Virus record (IMG/VR): IMGVR_UViG_3300037258_000066
Span: 1 to 45,669 of that record
Reading direction: 5' to 3' (one strand)
Source of the DNA: a virus
DNA: 45,669 nt
Notes under the pieces: generated by a model
What the model was told of the DNA's origin: nothing
The model's database searches: none
What the model saw: only the letters and a program-made list of their open reading frames with translations
Made by a program: the position numbers and the translations under genes
Part shown: piece by piece, positions 14,745-36,059 of the stretch
Layout of the letters: every line of letters starts with the position of its first letter
Numbering within the stretch: the first letter of the stretch is position 1

Positions 14745-14745
14745 T

Positions 14746-19177: not shown

Positions 19178-20087
19178 AAGGGAAGTCCTGATATTGATTG
19201 CCGGGATCGGATTGATTGATCGGCGGCTGTGTCGCCACGTAAAACGTGTCGCCGGGTGTCGGATCGTACGGGAAAGGCGTATAGACCGTGAATCCGTTGT
19301 AGTGGAGCCCGCCGCCCGGCGAGTACTCCACGTTAGCTGCGACTGCGCTCCACGCGCCCGCGAGAGAAGAGTCCGGCATGAAAACCATGTAGCCCCGGAT
19401 GAATCGGTTCTTGGCATAAATCTTGCCCGCTGTCGGCTGAATGCACTGACCGTTGATCTGCACCGCACTGGATGGGGCAATCACCGTGAAGGTCGGCACG
19501 GATGTTTCGCTGTCGGCCAGCACTGGCGTACCTGCCGTATAGCCAGCAAGTGTGCTCTGGGAAGAAATCACGTTCGGCGGGACCATCTGATTGACGACAC
19601 TCAGGAAGCTGTCGTCCTTGAATACGATGGAGTTCCTGACAACCGTATTCTCGCCGATCCATCCTCCGAACCACTCGCAAGCTCCGAATGTATTGGCGTC
19701 CCCTGGTGTGGGCATGACCGTGCGCCATACGCGAAGTTTCTTATTGTCGTAGTATCCGATCTGCGCAAGCTGGTACGGGCTGACCGAAGACAAGTCGCTG
19801 CCCGGAGTTCCGAAAATTCCTAGTGGCGGAGACCAGTTGACGCTCATGCTCGTGACCTCGAGGCCGATCTGCGAAGTAACCTTGTCCCTGCTGATGGTCG
19901 CGGGCAGGAACGTGCCCCAAACGGGCCACGCCAGAGGCGATTCCCAGTTCGTCAGCCACAGCGCATCAGGGTCTTCCGTCTCCCCGATGAGGTACAGATC
20001 GGCAAATTGATACTTGTTGTTGGCCAGCAGATAAGCCTTCACTGCTGCCGTTGAATCGTTGCCGTTGCCATCAGTAAATTTCCTCAT
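19149..20087 (-). CDS. DUF2163-like tail-tip protein (312 aa)
   Basis: ATG 20087 overlaps the previous stop as TGATG. The N-terminal half reads LYLIGETEDPDALWLTNWES and later KVTSQIGLEVTSMSVNWSP and YDNKKLRVWRTVMP. The C terminus has CIQPTAGKIYAKNRFIRGYM and TPGDTFYVATQPP. The order of strands and the 'A..NRF.G' region fit phage BR0599/DUF2163 hub proteins (gp13 of the Rhodobacter gene transfer agent). Context is strong: a DUF2460-like gene upstream and an NlpC/P60 gene downstream. It probably forms part of the distal tail hub. Confidence 0.72.
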   Translation of the reverse strand: MRKFTDGNGNDSTAAVKAYLLANNKYQFADLYLIGETEDPDALWLTNWESPLAWPVWGTFLPATISRDKVTSQIGLEVTSMSVNWSPPLGIFGTPGSDLSSVSPYQLAQIGYYDNKKLRVWRTVMPTPGDANTFGACEWFGGWIGENTVVRNSIVFKDDSFLSVVNQMVPPNVISSQSTLAGYTAGTPVLADSETSVPTFTVIAPSSAVQINGQCIQPTAGKIYAKNRFIRGYMVFMPDSSLAGAWSAVAANVEYSPGGGLHYNGFTVYTPFPYDPTPGDTFYVATQPPINQSDPGNQYQDFPYVPDPETAL

Positions 20088-21880
20088 CAGAATGTCGCGC
20101 AAGCCTCAAGCGAATTGGAACTCTCGACGGTGTAGGGCGGGTTTGGCCCAGTCGCCGCCACCACGTAGCAATAGGTGTTGCCGTGCATCGGAGTGGTATC
20201 GTCGTAGCTCGTGACGTTGCCCAGGCTGGTCAGCAGAGAATACGGTCCTCCAACTTGCGTCCCCCGATAGACTTTATAGCCAGTCACGCTCGCGCTATCG
20301 GAGGCTGTCCACGCCAGAGAAATCTTTGTCCCCGACATCGTGCCGGTACCCGTCAGGTTTTGCATGATCGAGCCGACTGTGCCGCCGATCGACGTCCAGT
20401 CGATCTCTAGGATCGCCGATTCTGCGGCGGTTGTGGACGGCGTGAAGGTGAGGATGAATCCGCAAGATTGGCCCGGAGCGTTCACGTACCCGCTGCCGCT
20501 GTTGAGAAATTGCCCATCCGCGCAGGTGCTTCCCGATAACACGAAGTCCGCCGCATCGGTCCCGGTGACCGTATAAAACGGCGTGGCGAAATCCATGTAA
20601 TTCGCGCCGGCGTTCACGAGGGTCACCGCGCGCGCCGTGGGCGTCGATTCAGTCACCGATCCGAAGTCATAGCCGGTCGAATCCATCTGAGAATTCAGCA
20701 CCAGGAGAGACGGATAGCCCACCGCCGGATATGTCTTGGTCATCCCGAGCGGAATGGATTGCGGGTTGTTGGCCGCGTTGCTGTTCACGGTGAGCGTGGC
20801 CGACTCCGAGAAACTGATCGTATATGGCCCTTGATCGGTCCAGACGAGCGTGTCTGGCCCCTCCGTCGTGGTGCCGCCCGATTCGTCCCAGTTAGGAACT
20901 CCGGGGTAACCCAGTCCTGGAGAATTGTCTCCCGACGTTCCCGCCGTGGTCGCTTTTTGTAAATGCGGGATGACGTTCGGCAGGCGATTGGCGTTGTCTG
21001 AGATCACGTCATTCAAGGCGTAGGCGTTCTCCGCCGTCCATCCCGGTATCTGCGCCGGGAATCCCGAAGGTGTTCCGGTTATTTGAATCGAACAACTGGC
21101 GTTCTTGCGCAGTACCATGCCATTTGCGCACGTCCCTCCGACTTGCGCGAAGTCGGCGCTATCCGTTCCGCTGATGGTGTAGAACGGAGACCCCAGTGTG
21201 ACTATTCCCTGCAAGGAAGAAATCACTGCGGTCCCGGTAAGCGAAGTGCCCAAGACGACGTTCGAGATGGAGAGTTGCGGCTGCCCGCTGCCGATCACGT
21301 CCGCTTTGTCGAGCGTGCCGATAGACGCCGCGGTGAAAGCGCCGTTGTAGACTAGGATGTGATGAGTCGTGGAAGGGGAAGAAGAAATCAGCGTTCCGGA
21401 AATCGTTCCTGTCAATTCTCCGGCGGAAACAAAAGTCGTGGTGACCGCCTGCCAGTCGAAGAGGATGGTCGCGGTTGAATTGAAGTCCGAGCCGTAGACG
21501 GTGATCGGCGTATCGACAGGGCTAAAGACGGTCGGCGAATAAGAAGTAATCGAGGCCAGCGGAGTTAGAACTCGGAACCGCACCGCATTCGACACGGCGC
21601 TGCTGCTGACGGTCACGGTAAAGGAGCCGATGGCCGCGAGCCTTGCAGCAGATACAGTCGCGGTCAGGAGCTGCGCGGAAAGGCGCGTCGTGGAAAGATT
21701 GGCGCCGTTGAATACGATCACGCTCGGAGGGCTGGAACTGAAATGCGTCCCATTCACAGACAAAGTGATGTCGCCTGATCCCGCGAGTACGTGGTCGGGA
21801 GAAATCGAGCCAATGACCGGAGCCTGTGCCCAGGCCGGGAGCGAGAACAGCAGCGCCAGCACTAGACTTGCTAATTTCAT
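20087..21880 (-). CDS. Secreted multi-domain Ig-like protein: TIG, anchor-D, FN3 (597 aa)
   Basis: ATG 21880 overlaps the DUF2460 stop as ATGA. Residues 1-20 are a clear Sec signal peptide (MKLASLVLALLFSLPAWAQA). Then come two IPT/TIG domains (about 22-105 and 108-205; PVIGSISPDHVLAGSGDITL), two choice-of-anchor-D-type domains (about 215-290 and 395-500; YTVTGTDAADFVLSGSTC), an insert with HLQKATTAGTSGDNSPG resembling a carbohydrate-binding motif, and a C-terminal FN3 domain. These are secreted or surface domains. Its place between two tail-tip genes makes it either an unusual virion protein or a cargo gene. It would be exported if made in the cell. Confidence 0.85.
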   Translation of the reverse strand: MKLASLVLALLFSLPAWAQAPVIGSISPDHVLAGSGDITLSVNGTHFSSSPPSVIVFNGANLSTTRLSAQLLTATVSAARLAAIGSFTVTVSSSAVSNAVRFRVLTPLASITSYSPTVFSPVDTPITVYGSDFNSTATILFDWQAVTTTFVSAGELTGTISGTLISSSPSTTHHILVYNGAFTAASIGTLDKADVIGSGQPQLSISNVVLGTSLTGTAVISSLQGIVTLGSPFYTISGTDSADFAQVGGTCANGMVLRKNASCSIQITGTPSGFPAQIPGWTAENAYALNDVISDNANRLPNVIPHLQKATTAGTSGDNSPGLGYPGVPNWDESGGTTTEGPDTLVWTDQGPYTISFSESATLTVNSNAANNPQSIPLGMTKTYPAVGYPSLLVLNSQMDSTGYDFGSVTESTPTARAVTLVNAGANYMDFATPFYTVTGTDAADFVLSGSTCADGQFLNSGSGYVNAPGQSCGFILTFTPSTTAAESAILEIDWTSIGGTVGSIMQNLTGTGTMSGTKISLAWTASDSASVTGYKVYRGTQVGGPYSLLTSLGNVTSYDDTTPMHGNTYCYVVAATGPNPPYTVESSNSLEACATF

Positions 21881-22620
21881 GGCGTGGGCGGCCGCGCCGT
21901 CGTCAGGGTCAGATACTGAGAGTTGGTCGCGTACGGCCCGCCGATGCACCACACTCGCACTCCGTTGATGAATTGATCGAACTCCCGCTGGTCAGTGTCA
22001 AACCTCACTCGGAAGTAGAAGTTGAATTGCGCGGTCACCGGCGAAGCCGGAGGGCCGACTGGCGAGGTGATGGCCCATTTGAGGTACAGCCCGGCAAAAG
22101 AGTATCCAGGTATGGCAAGACCCGGGCCCAACACGGTGTAATTGGTGGGACTCGATTTCGCCACGCCGTCCGCATAGACCTGAATTCCTCCGTTGAGATC
22201 CGTGATGTCCTCGTAGAACTGGCCACCCATGTTTCGCTGGATCGGGGAATAGTAGTAGGTTCCATCGGTGACAACTTGCAATTCCGCCTGGGTGTTCGGC
22301 GTCATATCGGTATTGAGCGCCGGCCCTACGTAATCATCCGATGGGTCGTCGTAGAGGAAATCGTCGTACTGCCCCTGCCGCGCCATGTAGAAGCCCATCA
22401 TGGTTTGCAAATCCGTGTAGGTCAGGCCGACGGGAATGTCTTTCGGGTTGTCTTTGAGATAGTTCCAGGTCAGCCAAAACTTCCAGATCGGATTTTGCAT
22501 CTGCGCGAGGCGCGTGGTGTAGCCCGATGGCGCTTCCTGCACGAGCGTCGAGAATGTCGGCGCCTTGGTCACGTTCACGTCGAGGCCGCGGATGGTGCTC
22601 GGAAATATTTGGCCGCTCAT
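21877..22620 (-). CDS. DUF2460/TIGR02217-like distal tail protein (247 aa)
   Basis: The N terminus begins IFPSTIRGLDVNVTKAPTFS and continues with YTTRLAQMQNPIWKFWLTWN and DLQTMMGFYMARQGQYDDFL. The pattern of F-W-x-W and 'FY..RQG..D.FLY.DP.D' is characteristic of DUF2460 proteins (gp12 of the Rhodobacter gene transfer agent), the distal tail ring. It follows the tape measure gene and precedes the tip block. The start is ATG 22620, overlapping the tape measure stop by ATGA. The length is close to the family norm of about 200-250 aa. Confidence 0.82.
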   Translation of the reverse strand: MSGQIFPSTIRGLDVNVTKAPTFSTLVQEAPSGYTTRLAQMQNPIWKFWLTWNYLKDNPKDIPVGLTYTDLQTMMGFYMARQGQYDDFLYDDPSDDYVGPALNTDMTPNTQAELQVVTDGTYYYSPIQRNMGGQFYEDITDLNGGIQVYADGVAKSSPTNYTVLGPGLAIPGYSFAGLYLKWAITSPVGPPASPVTAQFNFYFRVRFDTDQREFDQFINGVRVWCIGGPYATNSQYLTLTTARPPTP

Positions 22621-25253
22621 AGGTGTTTGGTCATATCCAGCGCCCCGGAACGCATCCCGCGCTTCACGGCCATGGTGATCTCGTCCACGCTCATCTTTCC
22701 GCCGCTCTGCGTCACGTTAATGGTCGGCTGGTAGTGATTGGTGACGTGTGAAGTATTTCCTCCGCCGCCGGCCACCGACGGAGGCGTACTGTTCATAAAG
22801 CTGTTGAAATTGTGAATCGCCGGAACGGCCCCTTGGAGTGCCGAAGAGATGGGCCGGGGCAGGATCATCTCCTGGTCGTGCGCGTAGACCATCTGATCTC
22901 CAGGGACGATACCGCCTTCTTTGAATGCCAATGCGGCGGCAAACACGAGCGGTCCCACGATCAGGTCAAGAGGAAAAGGGGTGCTGGCCATTGCTTTGGC
23001 CGCGGCAGTTTTGGCACTTGATAGGCGACTCACTTCGTCACTAGCAGTCGAATCGGCCGTTTGTTTTGCATTCGCCGCAATGCTCGCGACCAGTTTCATA
23101 TTTTCTGTTTCGAGCCACTGTTCGCCCATCTTCAGCACATCGGTCACGAAGGACGCGACCATGCTGTTCCACATGGCGATCATCACTGATGAGAAGGACT
23201 GGCCGGTCTGCATCATGCGGATGAATTGCTGATTGAAGGTATTGAACCCGGTATTCAAGGCCTTCTGCATCGACTGCTCGATTTGCTGCCAGGAATTGAT
23301 CATCTCGGCTTGCAGTCCGACCTGTTTGATCTGTAGCTGGCCGATGGAGTTCTGTAACTGGCCGATCAGTTGATTCGCATTCCGCAGCCGTTCGATTTCT
23401 TCAGGTGTCAGGATTCCGGCGCCAGCGAGCTTGGCGCCAAGTTGCGCGGAGATAATCACGGTCTCTGCGAGTTGCTGATTGAGGCGTGCGAGTTCGGTGT
23501 CGTATGCTTTTAGCTGCTCGTCATTGAACTGATCTTTGAGAGCTTCTGTCAGCGGGCCGGCGCCAATCCCCGTCATCGCCGCTTTGAGTTCGGCCTGCCG
23601 CAGAGCCATCGCCCGCTTCTGGTCTTCGGTGACCTGTTCTTGCGCGCGCTTGGCTTCTGAGATTTCCAGTTCGGCCATGCGCTCGGCGGCTTTCTCCGCA
23701 TCTTCGGCCTGCCGGATGAGCATGGCCCGGTATTTCTGTTCATAGTCGCGGTTCGAGGCGTTCTTCTTTTCATCCGCTGCGGCATTGATCTGTACGATCT
23801 GCAAATCGTAGGTGGCTTCATCCTGCGCTTTAGTGGCGACGGCCTTGCGATACTCCTCGGTTCCCTGCCGGTAGAGTGCGATCTCTTTGTTGTCCGCGTC
23901 GATCTTGATTTGATAAATCTGATCGGCTGCTAGAAGTTCGTCCGCGCGCTCGGCGTCCAGCGCGTCTGCCACTGCTTTCTTTTTGGCGTCAATCTCGGGC
24001 AGCGAAAGTTCAGGAAGTGCCTTGCTAGTTTCGAGAGTGGCTTGCGCGGCGGCCTGGGCCTGTACTGCGGCTGTCTTGGAAATGGTTTCTTGTAGTTTTT
24101 CCTGCGCGGATATTTCCCGCGCGGCCTGCTCAACGACTGCCTTGTCACGATCTGCCGCTTGGTTGCGGATCTTGTCGGCAGTGATCTTTTGCTGGGTTTC
24201 GAGGGACTGTTTTTCTTTCTCCAGGATGTCGATGGCCATCTGTGTCCGCGCCGCATCGAGATTGCGCCCAGCTTCCTTCTCATCGTTTTGGTACTTCTCG
24301 GCCTTGACGATCTCCATATTGATACCGACAAGCGCCGAGGTTACGTCTTTGTTCTCGTTGACTTTATCGTTGATAATGCGGATAGCGGCTTCGGCATCCT
24401 TGGCCGAGTACGCAAACTCGGCCATATGCTTGGTGCTGCCGACGAGTCCGAGCGTTCCGATGGCCGCCAGAACGATGATGGCGTGCTGCGCTTCCGCCGC
24501 GAGATATGTCCACGCCGTCGATTCATCTTCGAGCAGCTTCGTCAGCTTGGTTGTTTCGTTCGACAGGTCCAGACTCAGCGAGGGAATATCTCGCAGTTCC
24601 TTTTCGTATGCCGCGATAGGCCCTTGCGTGATGCGGACATACTCCTCGTCCAGCTTCATCAGCTCGTCGTTTTGTTTGGCCGAGGCTTCATTGACCCCAT
24701 GCTCGGCGTCCGCTAAATCAAGACTCGCTTTACCTAGTTTTTCAATCTCTGGAATGAATGCGGCGACGATGGCGATGGGAAGGGCTATTTCCCACAGAGG
24801 CCCGAGGACGGGAAGGAATTGAGCCATGCGCGCTAGCGGATAGCTCGCCATTCCGAGACCAGCTTCCATGCCAGCGAGACGCGCCGTGGTATAACCGGCA
24901 GCCCGTTCGAATCCCGACATTGATACCGTAGCAACTTCAGTCTCAGCGGTCTCTTCCGCCAGAGCCACTGAGACCTGATTTATCATCGAGGAAGCTACCT
25001 TCGCTGCCTCCGCAACTCTTTCCTCCCCTACTCCCAACTGGATTAGTTTTTGCGTGGCCCCTTCAACCGAGGAGCCCAGAGAAACCATGCGGACGATTTG
25101 CCCGGCGAGGACAGCGCCGGATTCGGTGGCTTGCTGGGCGACCTGAAGAAGTTTCTCTCTCATCCCCTCCATCGAAGCTGAGGCCCGCTGCGCGCCAGCG
25201 ACTATCGGGCCGACATCGAACTCTGCTCCAACTTTGAGAATATTGTCCGCCAC
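22617..25253 (-). CDS. Tail tape measure protein (878 aa)
   Basis: GTG 25253 overlaps the previous stop as TAGTG. The N terminus (ILKVGAEFDVGPIVAGAQRA) is typical of tape measure proteins. A hydrophobic segment lies near 150-170 (LWEIALPIAIVAAFIPEIEK). Residues about 190-650 are a very long charged coiled coil rich in A, E, K and Q. The C terminus has Gly/Ser/His-rich stretches (VPAIHNFNSFMNS, GGGGNTSHVTNHYQ). Tape measures set the tail length, and 878 residues would correspond to a tail of roughly 130 nm by the usual rule. Its position between chaperones and the distal tail gene confirms the role. Confidence 0.9.
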   Translation of the reverse strand: MADNILKVGAEFDVGPIVAGAQRASASMEGMREKLLQVAQQATESGAVLAGQIVRMVSLGSSVEGATQKLIQLGVGEERVAEAAKVASSMINQVSVALAEETAETEVATVSMSGFERAAGYTTARLAGMEAGLGMASYPLARMAQFLPVLGPLWEIALPIAIVAAFIPEIEKLGKASLDLADAEHGVNEASAKQNDELMKLDEEYVRITQGPIAAYEKELRDIPSLSLDLSNETTKLTKLLEDESTAWTYLAAEAQHAIIVLAAIGTLGLVGSTKHMAEFAYSAKDAEAAIRIINDKVNENKDVTSALVGINMEIVKAEKYQNDEKEAGRNLDAARTQMAIDILEKEKQSLETQQKITADKIRNQAADRDKAVVEQAAREISAQEKLQETISKTAAVQAQAAAQATLETSKALPELSLPEIDAKKKAVADALDAERADELLAADQIYQIKIDADNKEIALYRQGTEEYRKAVATKAQDEATYDLQIVQINAAADEKKNASNRDYEQKYRAMLIRQAEDAEKAAERMAELEISEAKRAQEQVTEDQKRAMALRQAELKAAMTGIGAGPLTEALKDQFNDEQLKAYDTELARLNQQLAETVIISAQLGAKLAGAGILTPEEIERLRNANQLIGQLQNSIGQLQIKQVGLQAEMINSWQQIEQSMQKALNTGFNTFNQQFIRMMQTGQSFSSVMIAMWNSMVASFVTDVLKMGEQWLETENMKLVASIAANAKQTADSTASDEVSRLSSAKTAAAKAMASTPFPLDLIVGPLVFAAALAFKEGGIVPGDQMVYAHDQEMILPRPISSALQGAVPAIHNFNSFMNSTPPSVAGGGGNTSHVTNHYQPTINVTQSGGKMSVDEITMAVKRGMRSGALDMTKHL

Positions 25254-25540
25254 TATTCGACTCGCTTCTGATGGAACTCCAAGGTCAGATAGGTCATCTG
25301 GTAATTGTCTCGTTCAGCGCGGCTGAGAATCCCGGCGGATTGCAAAATATATTCTGCCGATTCGATTCGATCATCTGTCTCGCGCAAGACTCGCGCCGCC
25401 TCCACACGATCCATGCCGAAAGAATAGTGTTTCGAGTCGTATGCGTTGAATTCGTAACTATCCAAACGATGAGGTTTTAAGATCGGCGCGATTGGAAGTC
25501 TTTCCGGTATTGCATCCTTGGTTTCGGTTTCATCAGCCAC
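25253..25540 (-). CDS. Hypothetical protein between tail chaperone and tape measure (95 aa)
   Basis: GTG 25540 has AAGGAG about eight bases upstream and overlaps the second chaperone frame by eight bases. The N terminus is acidic, then PERLPIAPILKPHRLDSYEF and a helix DDRIESAEYILQSAGILSRA. The position directly before the tape measure suggests a tail assembly role, but I cannot assign a family. Confidence 0.65.
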   Translation of the reverse strand: MADETETKDAIPERLPIAPILKPHRLDSYEFNAYDSKHYSFGMDRVEAARVLRETDDRIESAEYILQSAGILSRAERDNYQMTYLTLEFHQKRVE

Positions 25541-25775
25541 GTTTTTTCTCCTTCACTTGCTGTTTCAGCGCCTCGAATCTCTGGCGGTCGATATCCGACG
25601 CCTGACTCAACTTCTGCGCGCGCCGCCCGCCGCTGATCACCCGCATATCGCGCGCCGCATCTATTGCGTTGAACTTCGGTTGCGATTCGTAGCCGAGATA
25701 GCTGCGCACCATCAAATGCAGCGGCGGATAGTCGGCCCAATACTCGAAAAGTTCCACGATGTCGCCGAACGGCAT
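25533..25775 (-). CDS. Tail assembly chaperone, second frame (gpT-like), probably made by -1 frameshift
   Basis: From ATG 25775 this is 80 aa (PFGDIVELFEYWADYPPLHL, then YLGYESQPKFNA). The ATG has GAGGAG with zero spacing, which is poor for initiation. The frame is open upstream across 25776-25850, and the extra codons look protein-like (SLSFRELEGCLITATGWNLE). This joins the end of the first chaperone if the ribosome slips -1 near 25848-25862. Lambda-like phages make G and GT chaperones in this way. It probably guards the tape measure during tail assembly. Confidence 0.7.
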   Translation of the reverse strand: MPFGDIVELFEYWADYPPLHLMVRSYLGYESQPKFNAIDAARDMRVISGGRRAQKLSQASDIDRQRFEALKQQVKEKKRG

Positions 25776-25825
25776 CTCCTCGATTTCTTCGAGGTTCCAG
25801 CCGGTCGCGGTGATCAGGCAGCCCT

Positions 25826-26167
25826 CTAGTTCGCGGAAGCTGAGGCTGCCTTCCCTTCCCCCTCGCCGCTCACACGCAATCCTGATTTCTCCAGGATGAA
25901 CAGATACATGCCGGTAAGCGTGGGGCTGTCGTAGTCATCGGTGAGTTTTTCAACGGTCGGCAAATCGCCGTTCGCCCCGGCGCGCATCATTGATTCAAGA
26001 ATAGTTTTGTTGCGCCGGTCGAGCCATTCCTGAGCCGGAAGTTGCTCGCCTTTGTTCAGCATCTCTTGCCCTTGCGCCGTGAAGCGTTTCGCTATGCCTT
26101 CCGACATCGAGGCGAGCTTGACCGATTCTGCGGAACCTTCTATGCGGAAATCGAATACACGGATCAT
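25826..26167 (-). CDS. Tail assembly chaperone, first frame (gpG-like, 113 aa)
   Basis: ATG 26167 has AAGGAAGTGAG upstream. The product begins MIRVFDFRIEG, then a helix (KLASMSEGIAKRFTAQGQEM) and a C-terminal acidic region (TLTGMYLFILEKSGLRVSGE, then GEGKAASASAN). It lies between the tail tube and tape measure genes, where tail assembly chaperones are always found. The G-rich stretch just before its stop is the probable frameshift site. Confidence 0.7.
   Translation of the reverse strand: MIRVFDFRIEGSAESVKLASMSEGIAKRFTAQGQEMLNKGEQLPAQEWLDRRNKTILESMMRAGANGDLPTVEKLTDDYDSPTLTGMYLFILEKSGLRVSGEGEGKAASASAN
25848..25862 (-). promoter_or_regulatory. Putative -1 ribosomal frameshift site
   Basis: Minus-strand sequence GGGGGAAGGGAAGGC near the end of the first chaperone gene. 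Zero-frame codons GGG GAA GGG AAG can slip one base back onto G-rich codons, giving access to the second chaperone frame. It is not a perfect X XXY YYZ heptamer, so the exact slip point is uncertain. The reading-frame evidence is stronger than the motif. Confidence 0.5.
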
Positions 26168-26198
26168 CTCTCACTTCCTTTTGTTGGTTGGATTGTCC

Positions 26199-26214
26199 GG
26201 CCCGTGGAGGCCGT
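26199..26214 (-). terminator. GC-rich hairpin after the tail tube gene (weak)
   Basis: In the gap after the tail tube gene, CGGCC and GGCCG form a five-base stem around a six-base loop in minus-strand RNA. No U tract follows. It may slow polymerase or protect the 3' end of the abundant tail tube transcript. Confidence 0.3.
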
Positions 26215-26245
26215 CCTACTGAATTACTAGCGGGTTGTGCTGCGG

Positions 26246-27016: not shown

Positions 27017-27029
27017 TCGCTGCCTCCTG

Positions 27030-27070
27030 AAAAACAAAAAGGCCAGCTAGGGAGTTACCCCTAACTGGCC
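27030..27070 (-). terminator. Hairpin plus U-tract element before the tail tube gene (copy 1)
   Basis: In minus-strand RNA GGCCAG pairs with CUGGCC (27065-27070 with 27041-27046), then one mismatch, five more pairs (27048-27052 with 27059-27063) and a six-base loop. UUUUUGUUUUU follows at once (27040-27030). It looks like an intrinsic terminator but sits only about ten bases before the start codon and overlaps the ribosome-binding region. A sister copy lies before the capsid gene. Confidence 0.75.
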
Positions 27071-27106
27071 TCGGATTTCTTCCGTCAGCCAGACGCTGCT
27101 AGTTGC

Positions 27107-28112: not shown

Positions 28113-28113
28113 T

Positions 28114-28389: not shown

Positions 28390-29072
28390 GCGACTCTCCT
28401 ATCGTAATAGTGAATTGTCCGCTCGCAATCCTGATCCATTTCCCAGGTGCCGTAGCTGAGTGTTCCGGCGCCCGATGCCATCGCCTGAGACTTTTGACCA
28501 ATCCAGCCGCGCCGTTTATAGTTCAATGCACAGACCTTGCGCGCGGTCATTTCCAAATCAAACGGCACGCTGTTGAATCCTGCCACGGATACGATGTGTA
28601 CGTTCTGTACGCCGTTGCAGAACCCCGGACCTTGCGCGCCGAAGCCCCCGCGGCCGCCCTGATAGCGATAATTTTGGAAGGTTGCAACCGATGGCGAATA
28701 GCCGCCGCGAATGGAAATGAATCTCTTGTCTTGGTCTACGACGAAGCCCCACACATTCAGAGAAGTCGATTGCGGGATTTCTGATCCGTTCACATTGACT
28801 GAGGAAACCGAGACGATGGGCCAGTTGCGGATCGGCTGCCGGAGCGTCCCTGAGCCGTCATAAAATTCGTCGTAGCTGACAGGCGTGACGAACGGCGAAG
28901 CAGCGGGAATAGAACCGTCAGTGGGCCCGCGCCCGGTGAGATGCAGAACGTATGAAGAAAAGGCCGTGATCGCGTCTTGGATAATTTGGTCATCGCCCGT
29001 TCCTGTCACGCCCGCCCACGATTTGACAGCGGTTAAAGTAGAGAGGTCAATCGGATTCGCGGTGGGCGGCAC
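28386..29072 (-). CDS. Head-tail connector (gp6-like) (228 aa)
   Basis: GTG 29072 is the likely start; the ribosome-binding site is weak. The N-terminal half reads DLSTLTAVKSWAGVTGTGDD, IQDAITAFSSYVLHLTGRGP and then SYDEFYDGSGTLRQPIRNWP and IVSVSSVNVNGSEIP. The helix-turn then 'E.YDG.G...L....P...V.SV.V.G' pattern is characteristic of gp6/gp15-like connector adaptors. It should form a ring beneath the portal. An extended -10 promoter candidate lies upstream. Confidence 0.8.
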   Translation of the reverse strand: MPPTANPIDLSTLTAVKSWAGVTGTGDDQIIQDAITAFSSYVLHLTGRGPTDGSIPAASPFVTPVSYDEFYDGSGTLRQPIRNWPIVSVSSVNVNGSEIPQSTSLNVWGFVVDQDKRFISIRGGYSPSVATFQNYRYQGGRGGFGAQGPGFCNGVQNVHIVSVAGFNSVPFDLEMTARKVCALNYKRRGWIGQKSQAMASGAGTLSYGTWEMDQDCERTIHYYDRRVA

Positions 29073-29156
29073 TTCCAGTTAGAGGGGCGGACAGCATCGC
29101 GCGGTTCCTTGCCTTCCCGCCCCCGGAATCTCCTTTCGCAAAACTCGGATGCGGCG

Positions 29157-29165
29157 AATATAACA
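29157..29165 (-). promoter_or_regulatory. Extended -10 promoter candidate before the connector gene
   Basis: Minus-strand TGTTATATT is a TGn motif plus a TATATT hexamer. No good -35 is visible 16-18 bases upstream. It lies in the 99-base gap between the LuxR-type HTH gene and the connector gene, the longest gap in this part of the operon. A start near 29150 would give a leader of about 80 bases. Confidence 0.4.
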
Positions 29166-29171
29166 CAAACT

Positions 29172-29381
29172 TCAAGATAGTTGTCCGCGAACAGCTAAGA
29201 CGACCATCTTGCGCTTCGAATCGTCTCCCCGCGCAAGACCGGCACGGCGCTTGATTTCTTCCACGCGCCACCTCACTGAGCGTATCGGCAGACCGATCGA
29301 AGAGGATATTTCTTTATTAGTGAGTCCTTCGGCAATGCAGGCAATGATCTGCTGATCATAGAAGCGAGGAGTAAGTTTCAT
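29172..29381 (-). CDS. LuxR/GerE-type HTH protein (69 aa)
   Basis: ATG 29381 has AAGGG upstream; the longer frame lies over the FN3 gene. The protein is almost only a helix-turn-helix: IIACIAEGLTNKEISSSIGL, then PIRSVRWRVEEIKRRAGL. 'GL.NKEI....L....VK.....I' is the LuxR/GerE signature. There is no receiver or ligand domain. It sits inside the virion gene block, before the connector, and could control late or accessory genes. No target is visible. Confidence 0.78.
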   Translation of the reverse strand: MKLTPRFYDQQIIACIAEGLTNKEISSSIGLPIRSVRWRVEEIKRRAGLARGDDSKRKMVVLAVRGQLS

Positions 29382-29388
29382 TTTTCCC

Positions 29389-29763
29389 TTACTGCGTCGT
29401 CCCGGTAATCGAGGGAGGTGGGGGAATCGCTGCGGCGACAGGAGCCGTGTAGCTCGGTGTCGTGATTTGCATAGTCCCGCTCGGCGTTGATTCTCCGGCC
29501 GCATTGACTGCCGTCACATAATAGCAGCGCACAGCGCCATCGGGCAGCCCGGATTCAGAAAATGCCGCAGAGGTTACCGGGGCAGCGGTGACCTTTCCGA
29601 ACGTGGCTCCGGCACATGCGGACTGGGACTTATAGACGTTGTATCCCGTCGCGTTCGCTACTACCGGCCAAGTGAGGCTCACCGTGCGATTACCCGGAGT
29701 CTGCGCTTGCGCAGCGACGCAGAGACTCAGAATGGAAATCACAAGTCCGATTGCCTTGAACAT
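29389..29763 (-). CDS. Secreted single FN3-domain protein (124 aa)
   Basis: The N terminus MFKAIGLVISILSLCVAAQA is a Sec signal peptide, probably cleaved after AQA. The mature protein is one fibronectin type III domain (VSLTWPVVANATGYNVYKSQ, RCYYVTAVNAAGESTPSG) with a Pro-rich tail. The 'TGYNVYKS' and 'YYV.AVN..GES..S' strands are diagnostic. It follows the major capsid gene after a terminator-like hairpin. It may decorate the virion or be exported to the host surface; see the findings. Confidence 0.82.
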   Translation of the reverse strand: MFKAIGLVISILSLCVAAQAQTPGNRTVSLTWPVVANATGYNVYKSQSACAGATFGKVTAAPVTSAAFSESGLPDGAVRCYYVTAVNAAGESTPSGTMQITTPSYTAPVAAAIPPPPSITGTTQ

Positions 29764-29779
29764 TCACTGCTCCTTTGCC

Positions 29780-29821
29780 GAAAAGAGAAAGGGCGGCGAG
29801 AATTTCTTCCCCGTCGCCCTT
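29780..29821 (-). terminator. Terminator after the major capsid gene
   Basis: In minus-strand RNA AAGGGCG (29821-29815) pairs with CGCCCUU (29795-29789), with two further pairs after a mismatch, followed by UCUCUUUUC. A second hairpin (CUCACC/GGUGAG, 29828-29848) comes just before it. Together they could end or protect the abundant capsid transcript. Confidence 0.65.
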
Positions 29822-29857
29822 CGGTGACTCACCTTCGCCTGGGGTGAGACGAACTTT

Positions 29858-31789
29858 TTACGCGCTGCCCAGGATGCCCGTGCGAATAGTCAGCAGCCCG
29901 GGGATGTAATCGCCATACGTCTCATGCACGTATGTGCCGAAGGTCCATGCGCGTGTCGTCACGGGCCATTCTATCCCGTAGTAGTCGCGCTGCACGAACA
30001 TTCCGCTGACGCCAGGGATGCGCGAGTGCGGATAGGGATTACTCGTCTTGCGGTAGACGATGGTTCCCGGCGGCAACATCGGGTGGATGTGAATCGGCAG
30101 TTCTTCAGATCCCGTGGCCTTCATGCTGTACTGCGACTTGTAACCCGAGACCACGAAGCCTCCAAGAATGTTGCCCTGCATATCGCGGCTCACTTCGAAG
30201 CGGTAGGCCGGCACGCCGGAGGTGTTCTTGAACAACGCCTGAGCGATGGAGAGCTTGGCATCGACCGAAGCCCAAATTTCATCGGCCACGGTCTGGAAGG
30301 AAGTCCACTGCGCTTTGAGGTCGTACTCGATTTCCGCCACGGCAGGTACGGAGCTCGAGGAGTTGGTCATGCCAGGAGTCAGCAATCCGGTGTTGGTGAC
30401 GCCAGTGATCGGGCTCTTGGAAGTCAGGTCGCTCATGTTGATGAACGAGCCGTTGTTCACGCACCATGCGATGATTCCGGCGAAGTCGAGAGCCTGTTGG
30501 CTGTTGTCCGTGCTCAGGCCGGTGGCCGCTGCGGTGTAGCTAGCGTTCGCCGTGCCGTTCGCCAGATACACGAAAGGAACAGTGGTGATCGCCACCAGTT
30601 GCGCGTTGGCAGTCGTTGGCGTGGTCGCATCGCTCACGTCCACGAACCAAGCCCATGCGAATACGCCCTTCTTTGGCAGGACGTCGGCCAGCACGTAGGG
30701 ATAGGAAGTTCCTGCGCTGACGACGTTCGATGCCGCGCTCACCGCGCCCATTCCGCCCTTGATCGGATCGGTGGTGGTGTCGGCGTTTGTGCGCGTGAAG
30801 CTGGGAGTCAGGCCGCTCGCGACGGTCGGAGCTGCCTGGTAGCCGAATTGAGCGTTGTTCGGATTGCCGAGCATGGTCAATTCGACCACGCGGACAGATA
30901 CGTTCGTGCCGCCGCCGGTGAATCCGGTGCCGCCATCGGTCACAAGCCCGGCCGCCCCAGTCGGAAGAGCAGTTTTGAGCGCCACGGTCGGCGTATTGGC
31001 CGTCCCCAAAGCAAATCCGTTGAGGCCAGCCGCCGTGCCGGGGTTTCCGCCCCACATCAGAGATTCTTCTTGCAGCCACAATTCGTGCGCGCCGCGGATG
31101 TGCTCGTCGGCCACATTGTCCGTGTACCCCTCCCCAGCAAATTCTGCCGTAAACGTCACCGAGCGTTCGACACCTAGTTCGGCATAGGTCGCGAGGCCGT
31201 TGTTCTCGTTCGGGGTCGCGTATGCCACGCGCTCGCCTTCCTTGGCGCCCGCATAGGAAGTTCCCGGCCCGAGAGAGGTGTACTTCCAGTTGACGGCCGT
31301 GCCGTATCCGGCGTTGACCTTACCCCAGCGCGGGAGAGAGTTGCGCAGCGGCGTGTTCACCGGGTAAATCAGATAAGCCGGTCCGCGCAGATCGTAAAAG
31401 TTGTATCCGAGAGAGGTGGAGACGCCGGCTTTCTGCATTCGATTTGAATAGTCTTGAACGAGTTCCTTCATCAGATCGTTGGCTGCTGCGGCCCGATTAC
31501 CAAACTCGATCTCGGACTTGGCCATAAACAGTTCGTATTCGGCCTTCGATACGGCAGAACCTTTGGCCGCTGATTTGTATTCGATCCATTCGTTGATTCC
31601 GTCGCGCAGCCGCCTAAGCTGGGAAACGCCTCGAGCGTACTTCGCGAGCCTATCGCGGTTGTCTTGTTTCCAGCCCTTGACTAACTCGCGGGCATTTTTG
31701 TCTTGCTCCCTGGTCCACAAATCTCCTTGCGGGCCTCCCCATGTGGCCATTGATCCGCGAGTGATGCCAGGGTAGGCTGTGCGATTCAT
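29858..31789 (-). CDS. Major capsid protein, HK97-fold (643 aa)
   Basis: ATG 31789 has GGAGGAAAT upstream. Residues about 15-120 are charged and helical (DKNARELVKGWKQDNRDRLA, and SKAEYELFMAKSEIEFGNRA), like a delta or scaffold-like domain. Then comes a beta-rich core with YLIYPVNTPLRNSLPRWGKV, RVAYATPNENNGLATYAELG and EEIWASVDAKLS-type spine segments. The C terminus has HPMLPPGTIVYRKTSNPYPH and RTGILGSA. These are features of HK97-fold capsid proteins with the 'G..ILYR.P' loop. It is larger than the usual 300-450 aa because of a Gly/Thr/Ala-rich insert near 270-430. Its position after the protease-scaffold gene agrees. Confidence 0.8.
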   Translation of the reverse strand: MNRTAYPGITRGSMATWGGPQGDLWTREQDKNARELVKGWKQDNRDRLAKYARGVSQLRRLRDGINEWIEYKSAAKGSAVSKAEYELFMAKSEIEFGNRAAAANDLMKELVQDYSNRMQKAGVSTSLGYNFYDLRGPAYLIYPVNTPLRNSLPRWGKVNAGYGTAVNWKYTSLGPGTSYAGAKEGERVAYATPNENNGLATYAELGVERSVTFTAEFAGEGYTDNVADEHIRGAHELWLQEESLMWGGNPGTAAGLNGFALGTANTPTVALKTALPTGAAGLVTDGGTGFTGGGTNVSVRVVELTMLGNPNNAQFGYQAAPTVASGLTPSFTRTNADTTTDPIKGGMGAVSAASNVVSAGTSYPYVLADVLPKKGVFAWAWFVDVSDATTPTTANAQLVAITTVPFVYLANGTANASYTAAATGLSTDNSQQALDFAGIIAWCVNNGSFINMSDLTSKSPITGVTNTGLLTPGMTNSSSSVPAVAEIEYDLKAQWTSFQTVADEIWASVDAKLSIAQALFKNTSGVPAYRFEVSRDMQGNILGGFVVSGYKSQYSMKATGSEELPIHIHPMLPPGTIVYRKTSNPYPHSRIPGVSGMFVQRDYYGIEWPVTTRAWTFGTYVHETYGDYIPGLLTIRTGILGSA

Positions 31790-31813
31790 ATTTCCTCCGT
31801 TGGACTCAGGGTA

Positions 31814-31857
31814 GCCAAAAACAAAAAGGCCAGCCGGGGATCACTCCCCAACTGGCC
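31814..31857 (-). terminator. Hairpin plus U-tract element before the capsid gene (copy 2)
   Basis: In minus-strand RNA GGCCAG pairs with CUGGCC (31852-31857 with 31828-31833), then a 2x2 internal loop, five upper pairs (31836-31840 with 31845-31849) and a four-base loop. UUUUUGUUUUU follows (31827-31817). It shares the lower stem and the U5GU5 tail with the copy at 27030-27070, but the upper stem differs. It lies about 28 bases before the capsid start codon. Confidence 0.75.
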
Positions 31858-31879
31858 TCTGAACTTTCAGTCAGCCCGA

Positions 31880-32035
31880 CTACTGGAACTTTATTTTCTG
31901 CGTCACCATCTCAGCGGCGCACGGTACTCCGTCTTGAATCTTCAGCTTTTCGATCTCTCCGAATTTCAGTTTCTCGCAGAACTTAATGAAATCCGCCCAG
32001 CGAACTTTTTTTTCTGCGAACTCCTCAACCGCCAT
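31880..32035 (-). CDS. Small hypothetical protein before the capsid gene (51 aa)
   Basis: ATG 32035 is five bases after the protease-scaffold stop. The product is basic and helical (AVEEFAEKKVRWADFIKFCE) with a C-terminal basic strand (AAEMVTQKIKFQ). No strong ribosome-binding site is visible, so translation would depend on coupling. Function unknown; small genes at this place often encode capsid decoration or scaffolding helpers. Confidence 0.55.
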   Translation of the reverse strand: MAVEEFAEKKVRWADFIKFCEKLKFGEIEKLKIQDGVPCAAEMVTQKIKFQ

Positions 32036-32040
32036 TTGCG

Positions 32041-33462
32041 CTAGACCGGGAACGGATCTGACACATTGCTCTGTTGCGTCTTGCCGACTTCTCGATCTCG
32101 CGGCACGGCAAACAATCGGGCTGGCGAAGGAGCCGGCAGAGCCTCGACGGCTTTCTTGATCGCATCGGCGATCAGCTTTTCGGCGTCGGCCTTCGTCATG
32201 GAATCGGAGGTGCCGTTCGTCGCGGCGGCTGCGGCAGCTTTCGCGGCAGCGTCGTCAACTACCGGCGGCCGCATCTCATCGAGCAGCGCCTTGAGCGCCT
32301 TCTCCGCTTCCTTTTCGTCCGAGCCCATCACGTCCTTGCACGCCTTCATGCACTTGCCGAGATGAGTAGACATTTTCTCGTGCATGCCACCGAGGGCGGT
32401 GTGCGCCTTGTGCATGGCGTCGTGGTGCTCCATCGCGGCTTCCATGTGCGCGTGCAGCGCGGCCAGGCCCTTCTTGGCTTTGGCGAGATCATCGGAGGGC
32501 ACGAACTGCTTTTTGAAATCGTCCTCGCTGACGCCGAGAGCCGCTGCGCATTTCTTGATCTGTTCAGGATTCATGTTCGCTCCTGTTGCTGCGCACTGTT
32601 TTGCCATCAAACGTTCTACCAGCGCAGTGATTTTTTGCATCTCTGTGTCTAATTCAGAATCCCCGATATATTCGAGCTTCGCCATTTCATCGAGAATCGA
32701 CTTCGAGGACGGTGGCTCCATGCCCTCTTGTCGATAGATTTCTTTCAGGTGGGCGATGGCCTGCTCTTTGCCGGGGCCTTCGTATTTGTTGCCGCGATAA
32801 CCCCCATGAAGGGCGGCCCATGCAGCACCCATGTGGCTGTGGGACGGCTTGCCTGATTCGTCCGTGTAGGGTAGATGCCCAGCGCCAGCGAGATACTTGA
32901 CGCCTTTTTCGAGAGACAGCGCGAGAGCTTTGGTGATTCGCTCGACATCCGCGTCGGTGAGCTTTTGCTCCGGCGTCTTGAACATCTCGGTCGTTCCGTC
33001 GGCTTTCGCATATTCGATGAATGCTCCTGGCAGGCACGGATTATCGACGAGAGAAACTTCGCCCGGCTGCGCGGTGTAATATTTCTTCGCGCCTTCGGTC
33101 CATCGCTTGACGTACTTTCCGCCCTGGCTAAATCCGAGAAGAACTTTTTCGGTGACCTTCTTCCATGTGGAATCGTCCACGACTTTGAAGGCCATGCGGA
33201 TCTGCTTCTTGCTATCGTCGAAGTCAATCGTCTTTCCGGCGCCGACCGCGTTCAATTGGTGCATCTCACGCAGCGGCATGATGTTCTGCCCGTCAGAGGC
33301 TTTGCCTAGCTCATCGTTCACCGCCTTGTATTCTGGTTTCGTCGATTCGTAATGGCACGTCTCGCCGTCCTTGTCCTCTGCCTCTGCGGTAACGAGTCCG
33401 TAGACGAGGCGCTGCTCAATATCGACTTTGACGAGGGGGAAAAACTTTAGGAGCTTGTCCAC
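32041..33462 (-). CDS. XkdF-like prohead protease fused to scaffold-like domain (473 aa)
   Basis: GTG 33462 is the start. Residues 1-150 resemble phage prohead serine proteases of the XkdF type: RLVYGLVTAEAEDKDGETCH, MPLREMHQLNAVG with H68, and AQPGEVSLVDNP with S137. Residues 190-250 hold a conserved linker (AAWAALHGGYRGNKY, AIAHLKEIYRQEGMEPP). Residues 290-460 are helical and Ala/Met/His-rich (ALHAHMEAAMEHHDAMHKAH), like a scaffold. Protease-scaffold fusion lets the scaffold be cleaved during capsid maturation. It is placed before the capsid gene, as usual. Confidence 0.8.
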   Translation of the reverse strand: MDKLLKFFPLVKVDIEQRLVYGLVTAEAEDKDGETCHYESTKPEYKAVNDELGKASDGQNIMPLREMHQLNAVGAGKTIDFDDSKKQIRMAFKVVDDSTWKKVTEKVLLGFSQGGKYVKRWTEGAKKYYTAQPGEVSLVDNPCLPGAFIEYAKADGTTEMFKTPEQKLTDADVERITKALALSLEKGVKYLAGAGHLPYTDESGKPSHSHMGAAWAALHGGYRGNKYEGPGKEQAIAHLKEIYRQEGMEPPSSKSILDEMAKLEYIGDSELDTEMQKITALVERLMAKQCAATGANMNPEQIKKCAAALGVSEDDFKKQFVPSDDLAKAKKGLAALHAHMEAAMEHHDAMHKAHTALGGMHEKMSTHLGKCMKACKDVMGSDEKEAEKALKALLDEMRPPVVDDAAAKAAAAAATNGTSDSMTKADAEKLIADAIKKAVEALPAPSPARLFAVPRDREVGKTQQSNVSDPFPV

Positions 33463-33468
33463 GCGCGC

Positions 33469-33477
33469 AGCATACCA
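33469..33477 (-). promoter_or_regulatory. Extended -10 promoter candidate before the protease gene
   Basis: Minus-strand TGGTATGCT is a TGn extension plus TATGCT, six bases before the GTG start at 33462. The geometry equals that of the early promoter, so +1 would be the first base of the start codon. No -35 or ribosome-binding site is visible. The 96-base gap before this gene, following a secreted-protein gene, is a logical place for a late promoter. Confidence 0.4.
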
Positions 33478-33558
33478 GATGCGGCTATCGCTTTCTGTTC
33501 GCTGTGCTCAATTAGGAAACGCCGCGCGCTTCACGGTCTCGCGCCAGTCGGAGGCATC

Positions 33559-35271
33559 TCAGGGAATGCTCCCAAAGAACAGGGCCCCGCTACTCGGATA
33601 GTTCGGAATCACGTTCGCGTTTCCGCCTGCCCAAGCACTCAATTCAGCATTAGCTATTGCTGCAGCAGGGTCCACCGATGCTCCGGCCGCGCCGCTGGTA
33701 ATTGGAGTGGCATCCACGACCACGCTTACGAGATAGCCGTTTAGGTATACATCAATTACAGCGCCGACGACACATGCCGTTATGGCATCGCCTATTTGAA
33801 GAACTACAGATGGAGTTCTGTCCGTAAGGTCCGTATAAGTACCGCTTGCTAATCTCTGGTCAATTATCGAAGCCGATGTCGTTCCTGCCTTTCCTGTCCA
33901 ATGAATCCGATAGGCCGTCAATACTCCAGAAGTATTCACGCGCAACAAAGGGAGCACTGTGTCTGTGGACGTACCAAGAGCCTTGATTGTGATTTGTGAC
34001 CACTGGTCATTTGGCCAAGTCGCGGCGTTCCAAAAGGAATCGGGGTTACTGTTTACCGTTGATGAAGCGAAGGAATTGGATAAAAGTTGAGCCGCTACGA
34101 AACCCGCCGAAGAACTAAATCGAGTCCAGTTTCCCCCAATAGGATTAGCATCGGCTCTAGTGAAATTGTCGGAAGCAAGCAGGCCAAAGTTCAAACTCTT
34201 TGTTCCACCCGGAAACGGGATGGGAATGTTCTGCACGCCCTCGTACGTGTTGACAAGTGTTGCCAGCGGCGCACTTGCGGTCGCATGGTTGATATATCCC
34301 GTCGTGGCTTCCGCTGTGCCATCAGGAACAGCCGTGTAAAATAGGTGCGTGACTCCAGCAACTTCCAAAATCGTAGGGTCGGCCACTTGACCCTTTCCGG
34401 AGTTGACGCCTTCTGTGCTGGCGTTCCTGTAATAAGTAAGGGTTCCGGTGGGGGTCCAAGGACCGGCTGCGGACGGCGCCGACCAGCGCATGATGTCGGA
34501 CGGCAATGAATACACGGGCAAGACCGCATTGGGATAGTTCTTCTGCGTCGTCTGCGACCAGCCGTAATATCTGCCGTTGACCTTGGCGAATGTAAAGTTT
34601 CCGCCTCCAGTCCACGGTGCGCCAGATAAGAACGTGCCTGTGGACATCGAATCTACCCTGCTAGGATTCGATGGCTTGGTCCAAGTTAGGCCGTCCGTTG
34701 AGGTCGCCATCCCCGTCCCATAGACCGGAGTTCCGTTGGACCCGCCGCTATAGTAGCCATACCACGTTCCTCCGACCACATCACAGACAGTGAGCTGATA
34801 AACTCCGCTTCCTTCCCAGGTCTGCGTCGGAGTCAGAGCAGTGGCGTTTTGAAGCGTCCAAGTAACTCCATCGGAAGACGTGTATGCGGAAATGGCCGTG
34901 CCGGAAAAATTTCCGGGACCGCAATAGAGATAGTACGTTGATCCATTCTTGAATACTTTCGTTCCTCCGCCGACCGCAGCGATGATCGGATTAAGCGGAT
35001 CTTCAGTCCAAATCGTTCCGTCCAAAGATTCCGCATAGTAGATTCCGTATGGGGAAGCCACGTTGTCGTACCACATCTTAAAAACATTGCCCGCCCCGAG
35101 GCCTAGTTGAGAATTTCCTTCGTAGAGAACAGTGGGCTGTCCCGGCGAGAATCCAGCGGCCTTGTTAATTACGGTGCCAAGCGGCTGCCAGTAGTTAATC
35201 GCCGCATGGGAAATAGGCGAGAAAATCCCAATGAATAAAACCAACGCGCAGAATGCCCGTCTCAGGTTCAC
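33559..35271 (-). CDS. Secreted GH43/GH-F-like five-bladed beta-propeller glycoside hydrolase (570 aa)
   Basis: GTG 35271 overlaps the previous stop as GTGA. Residues 1-23 are a Sec signal peptide (NLRRAFCALVLFIGIFSPIS). Residues about 30-350 repeat propeller blade motifs: VLYEGNSQLG, MWYDNVASPYGIYYAESLDG, VFKNGSTYYLYCGPGN, SSDGVTWT and ADPTILEVAGVTHLFYTAVP. This pattern fits the GH43/68/32 clan, which cut arabinans, xylans or fructans. The C-terminal third (LASDNFTRADANPIGGNWTR) is a jelly-roll or LamG-like module. A depolymerase acting on host or matrix sugars is likely. It lies between the portal-side gene and the protease, which is unusual. Confidence 0.75.
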   Translation of the reverse strand: MNLRRAFCALVLFIGIFSPISHAAINYWQPLGTVINKAAGFSPGQPTVLYEGNSQLGLGAGNVFKMWYDNVASPYGIYYAESLDGTIWTEDPLNPIIAAVGGGTKVFKNGSTYYLYCGPGNFSGTAISAYTSSDGVTWTLQNATALTPTQTWEGSGVYQLTVCDVVGGTWYGYYSGGSNGTPVYGTGMATSTDGLTWTKPSNPSRVDSMSTGTFLSGAPWTGGGNFTFAKVNGRYYGWSQTTQKNYPNAVLPVYSLPSDIMRWSAPSAAGPWTPTGTLTYYRNASTEGVNSGKGQVADPTILEVAGVTHLFYTAVPDGTAEATTGYINHATASAPLATLVNTYEGVQNIPIPFPGGTKSLNFGLLASDNFTRADANPIGGNWTRFSSSAGFVAAQLLSNSFASSTVNSNPDSFWNAATWPNDQWSQITIKALGTSTDTVLPLLRVNTSGVLTAYRIHWTGKAGTTSASIIDQRLASGTYTDLTDRTPSVVLQIGDAITACVVGAVIDVYLNGYLVSVVVDATPITSGAAGASVDPAAAIANAELSAWAGGNANVIPNYPSSGALFFGSIP

Positions 35272-36059
35272 TGGCTCAGCTCACAATTCGCGTTCGTTCC
35301 ATCGAGGTAGCAGGTAGCGAAAGCCCACACCCCCGCCGTCTCGGCCAGTGTCGGCGGAGTCGTGGTAAAGCCCGCGCCCGAGGACCAGTAACCTCCGCTC
35401 ACCTGACCGGTCCCCGAAGCCGGTGAGATAATTTTCAGGACTACCGTGGCTGTGCCAGAACTTGGCTGCGTGAAAGTAATCGCGCAAGTGTCGCTGGCCG
35501 TGAGCGTGACACTTTGGTGGTTGCCGTTCGCGGGATTGAGTGTCAGAGCAGTAGTGCAAGTACCGTCCGAATGCTCGGCCGTCGTGTAAATAACGCATGG
35601 CCCTAAAGTGGGACTCGGATAATTTCCCGCAAGGCACCCGCCCGCTGGACCGGAGGGAGCGCCGCCGCCGGAACTGGCAGCCGTTGAGTAATTGATCGTG
35701 ACCGTGGCCGTCCCGCTGGAATATGCCGAAGCTCGCACGCGGAAAGTCGTTGGTGCGCTGGATGATCCGCTGAATGTGTAGGTCGTCACGCCGGGAGAAG
35801 TGATTGCCGATCCTGATGACGTCCACGTGTTTCCGCCGTCGGACGATTGCTCTGGCGCGAGAGTGGCGCTGAATGTATTGCCCGTTGTCACCGCTACGCT
35901 GGATGCGTTCGCTGGGAGCTTCTGAATCACGCACGCGGTGCTCGAAACGGCCTGGCACGCGCCGGTCGCTGTGATGTTTCCAGTGATCGGGTTAACCTGA
36001 GCGCGAAGCGGCAGCGCACAGCAAAAGAAAAGCGCGAGAAACAAAATCAATCTTCTCAT
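35268..36059 (-). CDS. Secreted beta-rich protein with signal peptide (263 aa)
   Basis: ATG 36059 has AAGGAG five bases upstream; an in-frame GTG at 36065 also overlaps the portal stop. The N terminus RRLILFLALFFCCALPLRAQ is a Sec signal peptide. The mature protein is Ser/Thr/Gly-rich and beta-type (TTFRVRASAYSSGTATVTIN) with a collagen-like linker (SSGGGAPSGPAGGCL). The end (TASDTCAITFTQPSSGTATV, GYWSSGAGFTTTP) resembles a C-terminal beta module seen in phage and bacterial surface proteins. Function unknown; probably works with the following GH43-like enzyme. Confidence 0.7.
   Translation of the reverse strand: MRRLILFLALFFCCALPLRAQVNPITGNITATGACQAVSSTACVIQKLPANASSVAVTTGNTFSATLAPEQSSDGGNTWTSSGSAITSPGVTTYTFSGSSSAPTTFRVRASAYSSGTATVTINYSTAASSGGGAPSGPAGGCLAGNYPSPTLGPCVIYTTAEHSDGTCTTALTLNPANGNHQSVTLTASDTCAITFTQPSSGTATVVLKIISPASGTGQVSGGYWSSGAGFTTTPPTLAETAGVWAFATCYLDGTNANCELSQ

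Follow-up and report, generated by a model that had tools for sequence, protein, structure and literature searches.

Four genes in the virion operon of a soil siphophage, here called SP1 to SP4, encode proteins that begin with classical export signals of the general secretory (Sec) pathway, and genes bearing such signals recur in the same operon slots of related phages and among the fibre and spike genes of podoviruses. The siphophage, whose tail tip is like that of a gene transfer agent (GTA), is known from IMG/VR virus record IMGVR_UViG_3300037258_000066, and all 45,669 bases of that record are referred to below as the window. We give about an even chance to the view that the four are members of a class of proteins encoded in virion operons, most of them fibre-, spike- or decoration-like and glycan-binding, which would be exported via Sec and released at lysis, with some of them docking on virions. 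More tentatively, and at somewhat under even chances, we suggest that some tailed phages of Acidobacteriota build two-compartment virions, in which cytoplasmic heads and tails would be joined only at lysis to periplasmic, disulfide-bonded fibres or spikes.

Four signal-bearing genes in the window

The late region of the window lies on the minus strand and comprises terL, portal, a protease-like gene, a major-capsid-like protein, adaptor, tape measure, Dit-like and hub genes, an NlpC/P60-like gene (named by position) and the gene of a Phage-tail_3 tip protein. An earlier note, made by a model from the letters alone, had placed four genes with clear signal peptides in this region; all four open reading frames are present on the minus strand, and each encodes a classical Sec signal:

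35268..36059, minus strand: SP1, 263 amino acids, Sec signal and beta-rich domain, first gene after the portal; signal peptide MRRLILFLALFFCCALPLRA (36000..36059, minus), then QV; rule score 4.19
33559..35271, minus strand: SP2, 570 amino acids, GTG start, Sec signal, five-bladed propeller of GH32/43/117/130 type and C-terminal beta domain; signal peptide MNLRRAFCALVLFIGIFSPISHA (35203..35271, minus), then AI; rule score 4.08
29389..29763, minus strand: SP3, 124 amino acids, Sec signal and single FN3-like domain, in the slot between major capsid protein (MCP) and head-tail adaptor; signal peptide MFKAIGLVISILSLCVAAQA (29704..29763, minus), then QT; rule score 4.41
20087..21880, minus strand: SP4, 597 amino acids, Sec signal, TIG and C-terminal FN3-like domain, between Dit (DUF2460) and hub; signal peptide MKLASLVLALLFSLPAWA (21827..21880, minus), then QA; rule score 4.30

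The scores come from a purpose-made rule for the n-, h- and c-regions of a signal, with 958 core virion genes from 139 related loci and 4400 shuffled window proteins as background. A score of at least 4.0 was reached by 0 of the 958 core genes and 9 of the 4400 shuffled proteins, and at a threshold of 3.6 the false positives among the core genes, taken from these more distant loci, numbered 4. All four signals have a charged n-region, a hydrophobic h-region and an AXA-type cleavage site at the true start of the protein, and no further virion-operon gene of the window has a signal of comparable quality. For SP1, the top cleavage site of the rule falls between CCA and LP, and the site between LRA and QV was favoured on inspection. 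Maximum 19-residue hydropathy in the mature parts ranged from 0.95 to 1.45, except in SP2 (1.94). Three other identities were ruled out: lipoproteins, as no lipobox is present; signal-arrest-release (SAR) endolysins, as no lytic domain was found; and wrongly called start codons, as Shine-Dalgarno sequences or stop-start overlaps coincide with the first codon of the signals.

Overlaps of one to four bases, described earlier for three of the four genes, are likewise present, SP1 and SP2 sharing 4 bases (35268-35271) and SP4 sharing 4 with Dit (21877-21880) and 1 with the hub (20087). The ATG start of SP1 at 36059 lies 2 bases past the portal gene with AAGGAG upstream, and a GTG start at 36065 gives a 4-base overlap with the portal. 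Of the surface domains named in the earlier note, the TIG domain of SP4 passes the Pfam cut-off and SP3 does match FN3-like stretches of phage tail families, but anchor-D had no Pfam match. The predicted structure of SP2 is a five-bladed propeller (most of residues 29-330 confident) whose fold resembles GH32/43/117/130 glycosidases (Foldseek E 1e-7 to 1e-10; TMt ~0.62 with BT_0996 and 4qqs), although it is only ~9-16% identical to them and has no family-level sequence match. As no Pfam glycosidase match was found at E 0.1, SP2 is not classed as GH43, and the GH43-like propeller proposed earlier holds as a five-bladed GH32/43-type fold but not as a sequence assignment. SP1 has no recognised domain, and we make no claim about its fold from AlphaFold, the model being poor (two sequences, predicted local distance difference test score 46).

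The terminator said to precede SP3 is represented by a terminator-like hairpin, found before this gene only among the four:

29778..29820, minus strand: hairpin GGGCGACGGGGAAGAAATTCTCGCCGCCC (~29820-29792) with T-rich tail TTTCTCTTTT, between MCP and SP3; fold z -1.5

That fold z is modest, and an automated terminator scan of the window does not list the site.

Signal-bearing genes in related and cultured phages

Portal and capsid searches recovered the close relatives G001 (96% in the portal), G002, G003, G004/G005 and G006. A survey of the same gene slots, as the earlier note had proposed, found signal-bearing genes recurring after the portal (SP1 in the window, G001, L010, L029, L047 and two Acidobacteriota metagenome-assembled genomes, L145 and L148), after the capsid (SP3 in the window, G001, G002 and L032) and between Dit and hub. 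The SP3 slot is occupied by signal-bearing genes in G001 (L002 18065-18988, FN3) and in L003 (15939-16607 and 16604-17029). Orthologues of SP4 stand between Dit and hub in G001, L177 and L179, so that four phages including the window share the gene, each with a Sec signal; their mature parts are ~40-69% identical in the best-matching stretches, and the signals are unlike one another yet all of Sec type. All 6 mature cysteines of SP4 are conserved in G001. The SP1 homologue of G001 (L002 12387-13955) retains the signal together with ~106 residues at the start of the mature part, beyond which its sequence is of fibre type, and it matches tail and tail-fibre PHROGs; the mature part of SP1 itself has 8 cysteines. 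In G004, three consecutive signal-bearing genes follow the tip gene, the first of them clearly of tail-fibre type, and the protein of 30568-31539, whose signal scores 5.0, has matches to five tail-fibre PHROGs. Within the window, SP1, SP2 and SP4 have no fibre match, and SP3 has FN3-like tail matches only. Beside SP3, a small LuxR/GerE-type helix-turn-helix protein (by eye) is encoded directly downstream (29172-29381, minus); a similar gene follows the signal-FN3 gene in G001 (~24301-24507) and precedes one in L173 (11707-11928).

On conservation of the signal, the lack of which the earlier note would have counted against its idea, the picture is mixed: SP1 and SP4 keep it in relatives, but the SP2 family carries it in only 3 of 7 representative members. 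Besides SP2, the members are:

Without signal: L008/L009 6289-8157; L170 954-3062; L172 5192-7228; L171 9161-11650
With signal: L173 9203-11581; L174 9965-11680

Residues E81, D193, D259 and D298 are invariant in an alignment of 7 sequences of the family, the tree of which is poorly resolved, with presence and absence of the signal scattered on it. The signal-less proteins of L008, L170 and L172 start at residues aligned to SP2 21-24, which is the predicted cleavage site. In the slot between portal and protease the signal is present in the window and absent in G004, where the orthologue of G004/G005 starts with MIGVWQNKG, aligned to SP2 residue 24. The signal-less L171 protein has an extra N-terminal domain and adjoins a terminase/helicase-like gene on a 155 kb viral contig. 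The SP2 slot of G001 (L002 13969-14508) holds an SGNH/GDSL hydrolase without signal (PF13472 E 3.8e-14) that matches a tail-fibre PHROG.

A second family shows the same arrangement. The podovirus of the L173 record (G405) has a GP7-type capsid, a head-tail connector and a tail nozzle, and its fibre region consists of four signal-bearing genes, the tailspike being the last:

12794-16354 of L173: tailspike, whose phrog_1640 tail domain starts at residue 24, immediately behind the predicted cleavage site

The tailspikes of phages ZP6 and Skadi-10 lack a signal, and it is their residue 2 that aligns with residue 24 of this protein. The N-terminal domain is of the phrog_1640 type found in those podovirus tailspikes and precedes a pectate-lyase-like region (by eye), and the gene is preceded by the tail nozzle and internal virion genes; unlike its two counterparts, the L173 protein adds a Sec signal and a Cys pair, and it has 32 cysteines. 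The tailspike N-terminus gave a single weak match in 392 Acidobacteriota genomes. The alignments of the SP2 family and of the L173 tailspike therefore indicate, in two unrelated families, that the mature signal-bearing form corresponds to a complete signal-less virion-type protein.

Cultured phages provide a further case. Tunturi_1 and Tunturi_2 infect Tunturiibacter psychrotolerans and have podovirus particles; their description mentions no signal peptides and names proteomics as future work only (PMC11924767). In their virion operon gp12, gp13, gp14, gp16 (small) and gp17 have Sec-type signals, the weakest being that of gp13 (3.23), and every large fibre or spike gene carries one. For gp13, gp14 and gp17, one of the records or the other gives the name tail fibre, tail spike/pectin lyase or virion structural protein. 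This run of signal-bearing fibre and spike genes in the virion operon of an Acidobacteriota phage resembles that of the window, although the Tunturi phages are podoviruses and no homology to SP1-SP4 was detected; a scan with gp11 of Tunturi_1 found no uncultivated relatives. The fibre genes checked in Tunturi_3, 4 and 5 lack signals, which argues that signal-bearing fibres are a strategy of certain phages and not a necessity imposed by the host phylum.

Farther from the close clade, in the 139 more distant loci, signal-bearing genes are scarcer and partly of moron type. Such genes, SP1-SP4 included, might be morons taken from hosts, originally coding for secreted proteins, that settled in permissive operon slots and equip lysogens with new surface proteins; in proteobacterial relatives the slots between portal and protease, MCP and adaptor, and g26246 and the tape measure protein do hold unrelated signal-bearing genes, including lipoproteins; the portal-slot region is a general insertion hot spot, and the domains of the window proteins are Acidobacteriota-like. 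We consider this origin improbable for the four: three of them are tied in translation to late genes or to one another by overlaps of 1-4 bases, SP4 is conserved as an orthologue in a single tail-module slot shared by four phages, the close clade has mainly fibre-type sequences, and no promoter-like site above chance was found near SP1-SP3. Other exported genes in the portal-slot region of relatives are lipase-, trypsin- and PLD-like by eye (L113 4222-6839, L156 3150-4574, L094 5723-6256). The nearest named MCP relatives are the Brevundimonas phages Polewnik and Strzyga, and the corresponding slots of Polewnik have no convincing signal. MCP relatives also exist in Acidobacteriota genomes but are distant, and in L198, one of them, the stretch of operon that was read has no signal-bearing gene. 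Neither P0001, P0002 and P0004 nor the decoration-like signal proteins of L068 and L003 had a match among 50,697 phage records.

Probable export, with proposed release and docking

The cysteine content of the proteins bears on whether their signals are used. Among operon proteins with a signal, the mature part holds an even number of cysteines in 22 and an odd number in 4, versus 105 and 139 in signal-less neighbours (Fisher p 4e-5, an optimistic value since some of the proteins are paralogous; the set also includes moron-type genes); over all loci the counts are 31 even and 7 odd with signal versus 195 and 246, and 21 of 27 are even in a set picked by hand around the close clade. Even numbers are as expected if disulfides form in an oxidising compartment. 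Tunturi_1 and Tunturi_3 share the host strain X5P2, and the signal-bearing fibres of the former have 2.05 cysteines per 100 amino acids versus 0.26 in the signal-less fibres and virion proteins of the latter. Because the SP4 signals have diverged yet been kept, cysteine numbers are even, and the Tunturi phages differ so within one host, export of the signal-bearing proteins is probably real; the Acidobacteriota-type secreted domains appear to give it good support as well. That the signals go unused, through a downstream translation start or as uncleaved hydrophobic N-termini of virions assembled in the cytoplasm, would agree with the usual assembly of tailed-phage parts and with family members that manage without a signal. 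However, Shine-Dalgarno or overlap-coupled starts stand at the first codon of the signals, n/h/c features persist while sequences diverge, and the parity and 8-fold same-host difference in cysteines indicate an oxidising compartment, so that we regard unused signals as very unlikely.

What the exported proteins would do is a separate matter. They might form a late secretome outside the virion, made up of adhesins and glycan hydrolases that act free of the particle, stripping or coating the surfaces of host and neighbours, clearing debris or blocking re-adsorption. Close to this lies the proposal of the earlier note, a module secreting extracellular proteins, and its export part is well supported. 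Signals and cysteine pattern agree with a late secretome, as do the resemblance of the SP2 propeller to exported glycosidases, the TIG and FN3 domains of SP4, which match 148 of 396 Acidobacteriota genomes versus 3 of 398 Pseudomonadota, and the other fibre candidates of the window phage. The part that set the module apart from the virion finds no support, because the same proteins recur in other phages as fibre, spike or decoration types with and without signal, and the signal-less forms start where the signal-bearing ones would be cleaved. A free secretome leaves unexplained why signals occur on tail fibres and tailspikes of canonical kind whose N-termini are of virion type, why signal-less versions lie inside virion operons, and what serves Tunturi_1 and the L173 phage as host-binding part; we hold it to be rather unlikely. 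Display by an unusual route, which the note had offered as its alternative, now has at least as much support as export of extracellular proteins.

Under the reading we favour, export followed by docking of some members, the class would be synthesised late and leave the cytoplasm by Sec; signal peptidase would cleave the signals, and the proteins would fold, form disulfides and wait in the periplasm until lysis, while heads and tails are assembled in the cytoplasm as usual. Opening of the envelope would mix both pools, and fibre-type members may then dock as late-added host-binding parts, which is the least certain step. Enzyme- or adhesin-type members (SP2, SP4) would act on host surface glycans, whether virion-bound or, equally possibly, free. 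Docking is favoured for the class because Tunturi_1 and the L173 podovirus appear to have no other spike candidates, no signal-less one having been seen in either. Several points, besides the optimistic p value, weigh against this reading. Docking is less convincing for the window's own four because signal-less fibre-type candidates are also present in the window (13851-14819, 13413-13844), and SP1-SP4 may be accessory. The scoring rule is not SignalP; SP1, SP2 and SP3 have few signal-bearing orthologues each; mature SP3 is only 104 amino acids long; and SP2 has 3 mature cysteines, and those of its family are not clearly paired.

Exported phage endolysins such as fOg44 Lys44 and the SAR endolysins are already known (PMC6116005, a review). 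They too are late phage proteins using the host Sec pathway, but they are endolysins, whereas in the window proteins no lysis domain was recognised, and their links are to fibres or glycans. Lom of phage lambda is an outer-membrane protein, and exported morons of lom type sit in tail operons; they resemble the genes described here in encoding exported host-surface proteins beside tail genes, but SP1-SP4 look like soluble beta proteins, some with fibre-type homologues. Searches of the open-access literature turned up no description of Sec signals on tail fibres or tailspikes. On the current understanding, tailed-phage virions are finished inside the cytoplasm, a rule that fibres and spikes made with cleavable export signals would break. 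Assembly in two compartments, if true, would be categorically new. Host-binding parts would bypass the reducing cytoplasm, which would explain disulfide-stabilised binding domains in phages, and they would be a natural source of export-ready binding proteins and depolymerases. Signal-bearing proteins of soil phages, some perhaps read as auxiliary metabolic enzymes, may likewise be receptor-binding proteins. Tunturi_1, with signals, and Tunturi_3, with none, make the question testable now in one host strain.

Landmarks, host and neighbouring genes

The genes that flank SP1-SP4 were identified as follows:

36062..38371, minus strand: portal protein with Mu-F-like C-terminus (phrog_2662 E 2.8e-57)
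29858..31789, minus strand: MCP (phrog_13692 E 8.5e-54, a family of unknown function), a name suggested by position, conservation and synteny with Polewnik
21877..22620, minus strand: Dit-like DUF2460 protein (PF09343 E 1.4e-18)
19149..20087, minus strand: hub, phiJL001 Gp84 / GTA gp13-like (PF09931 E 0.0016, weak, under the Pfam cut-off)

The sole match of the 13851-14819 protein among the 50,697 phage records is in Tunturi_5 (37.6%); together with the mostly Acidobacteriota matches of the SP4 domains, this suggests that the host of the window phage is probably an acidobacterium. The fibre-like family of 13851-14819 (minus) has a single copy in the window, and the jumbo phage Tunturi_5 has four in tandem (L214 33318-36736). 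A lipobox protein (LCGC; MKRLIPILLMFLCGCAAH) at 12093-12506 (minus), 30% identical to a Tunturi_1 protein, is perhaps an outer spanin or lysis lipoprotein, and with 12808-13107, which has a membrane segment and lies downstream of the virion operon, looks like part of a lysis cassette. A strong terminator-like hairpin of 16 pairs (31825-31860, minus) stands between a small gene (31880-32035) and the capsid gene. Upstream of terL, several genes at 40615-43846 (minus) are family-2 glycosyltransferase-like by eye (N-termini e.g. MISLLTPTRKRPQRLRAMIDSVLAT).

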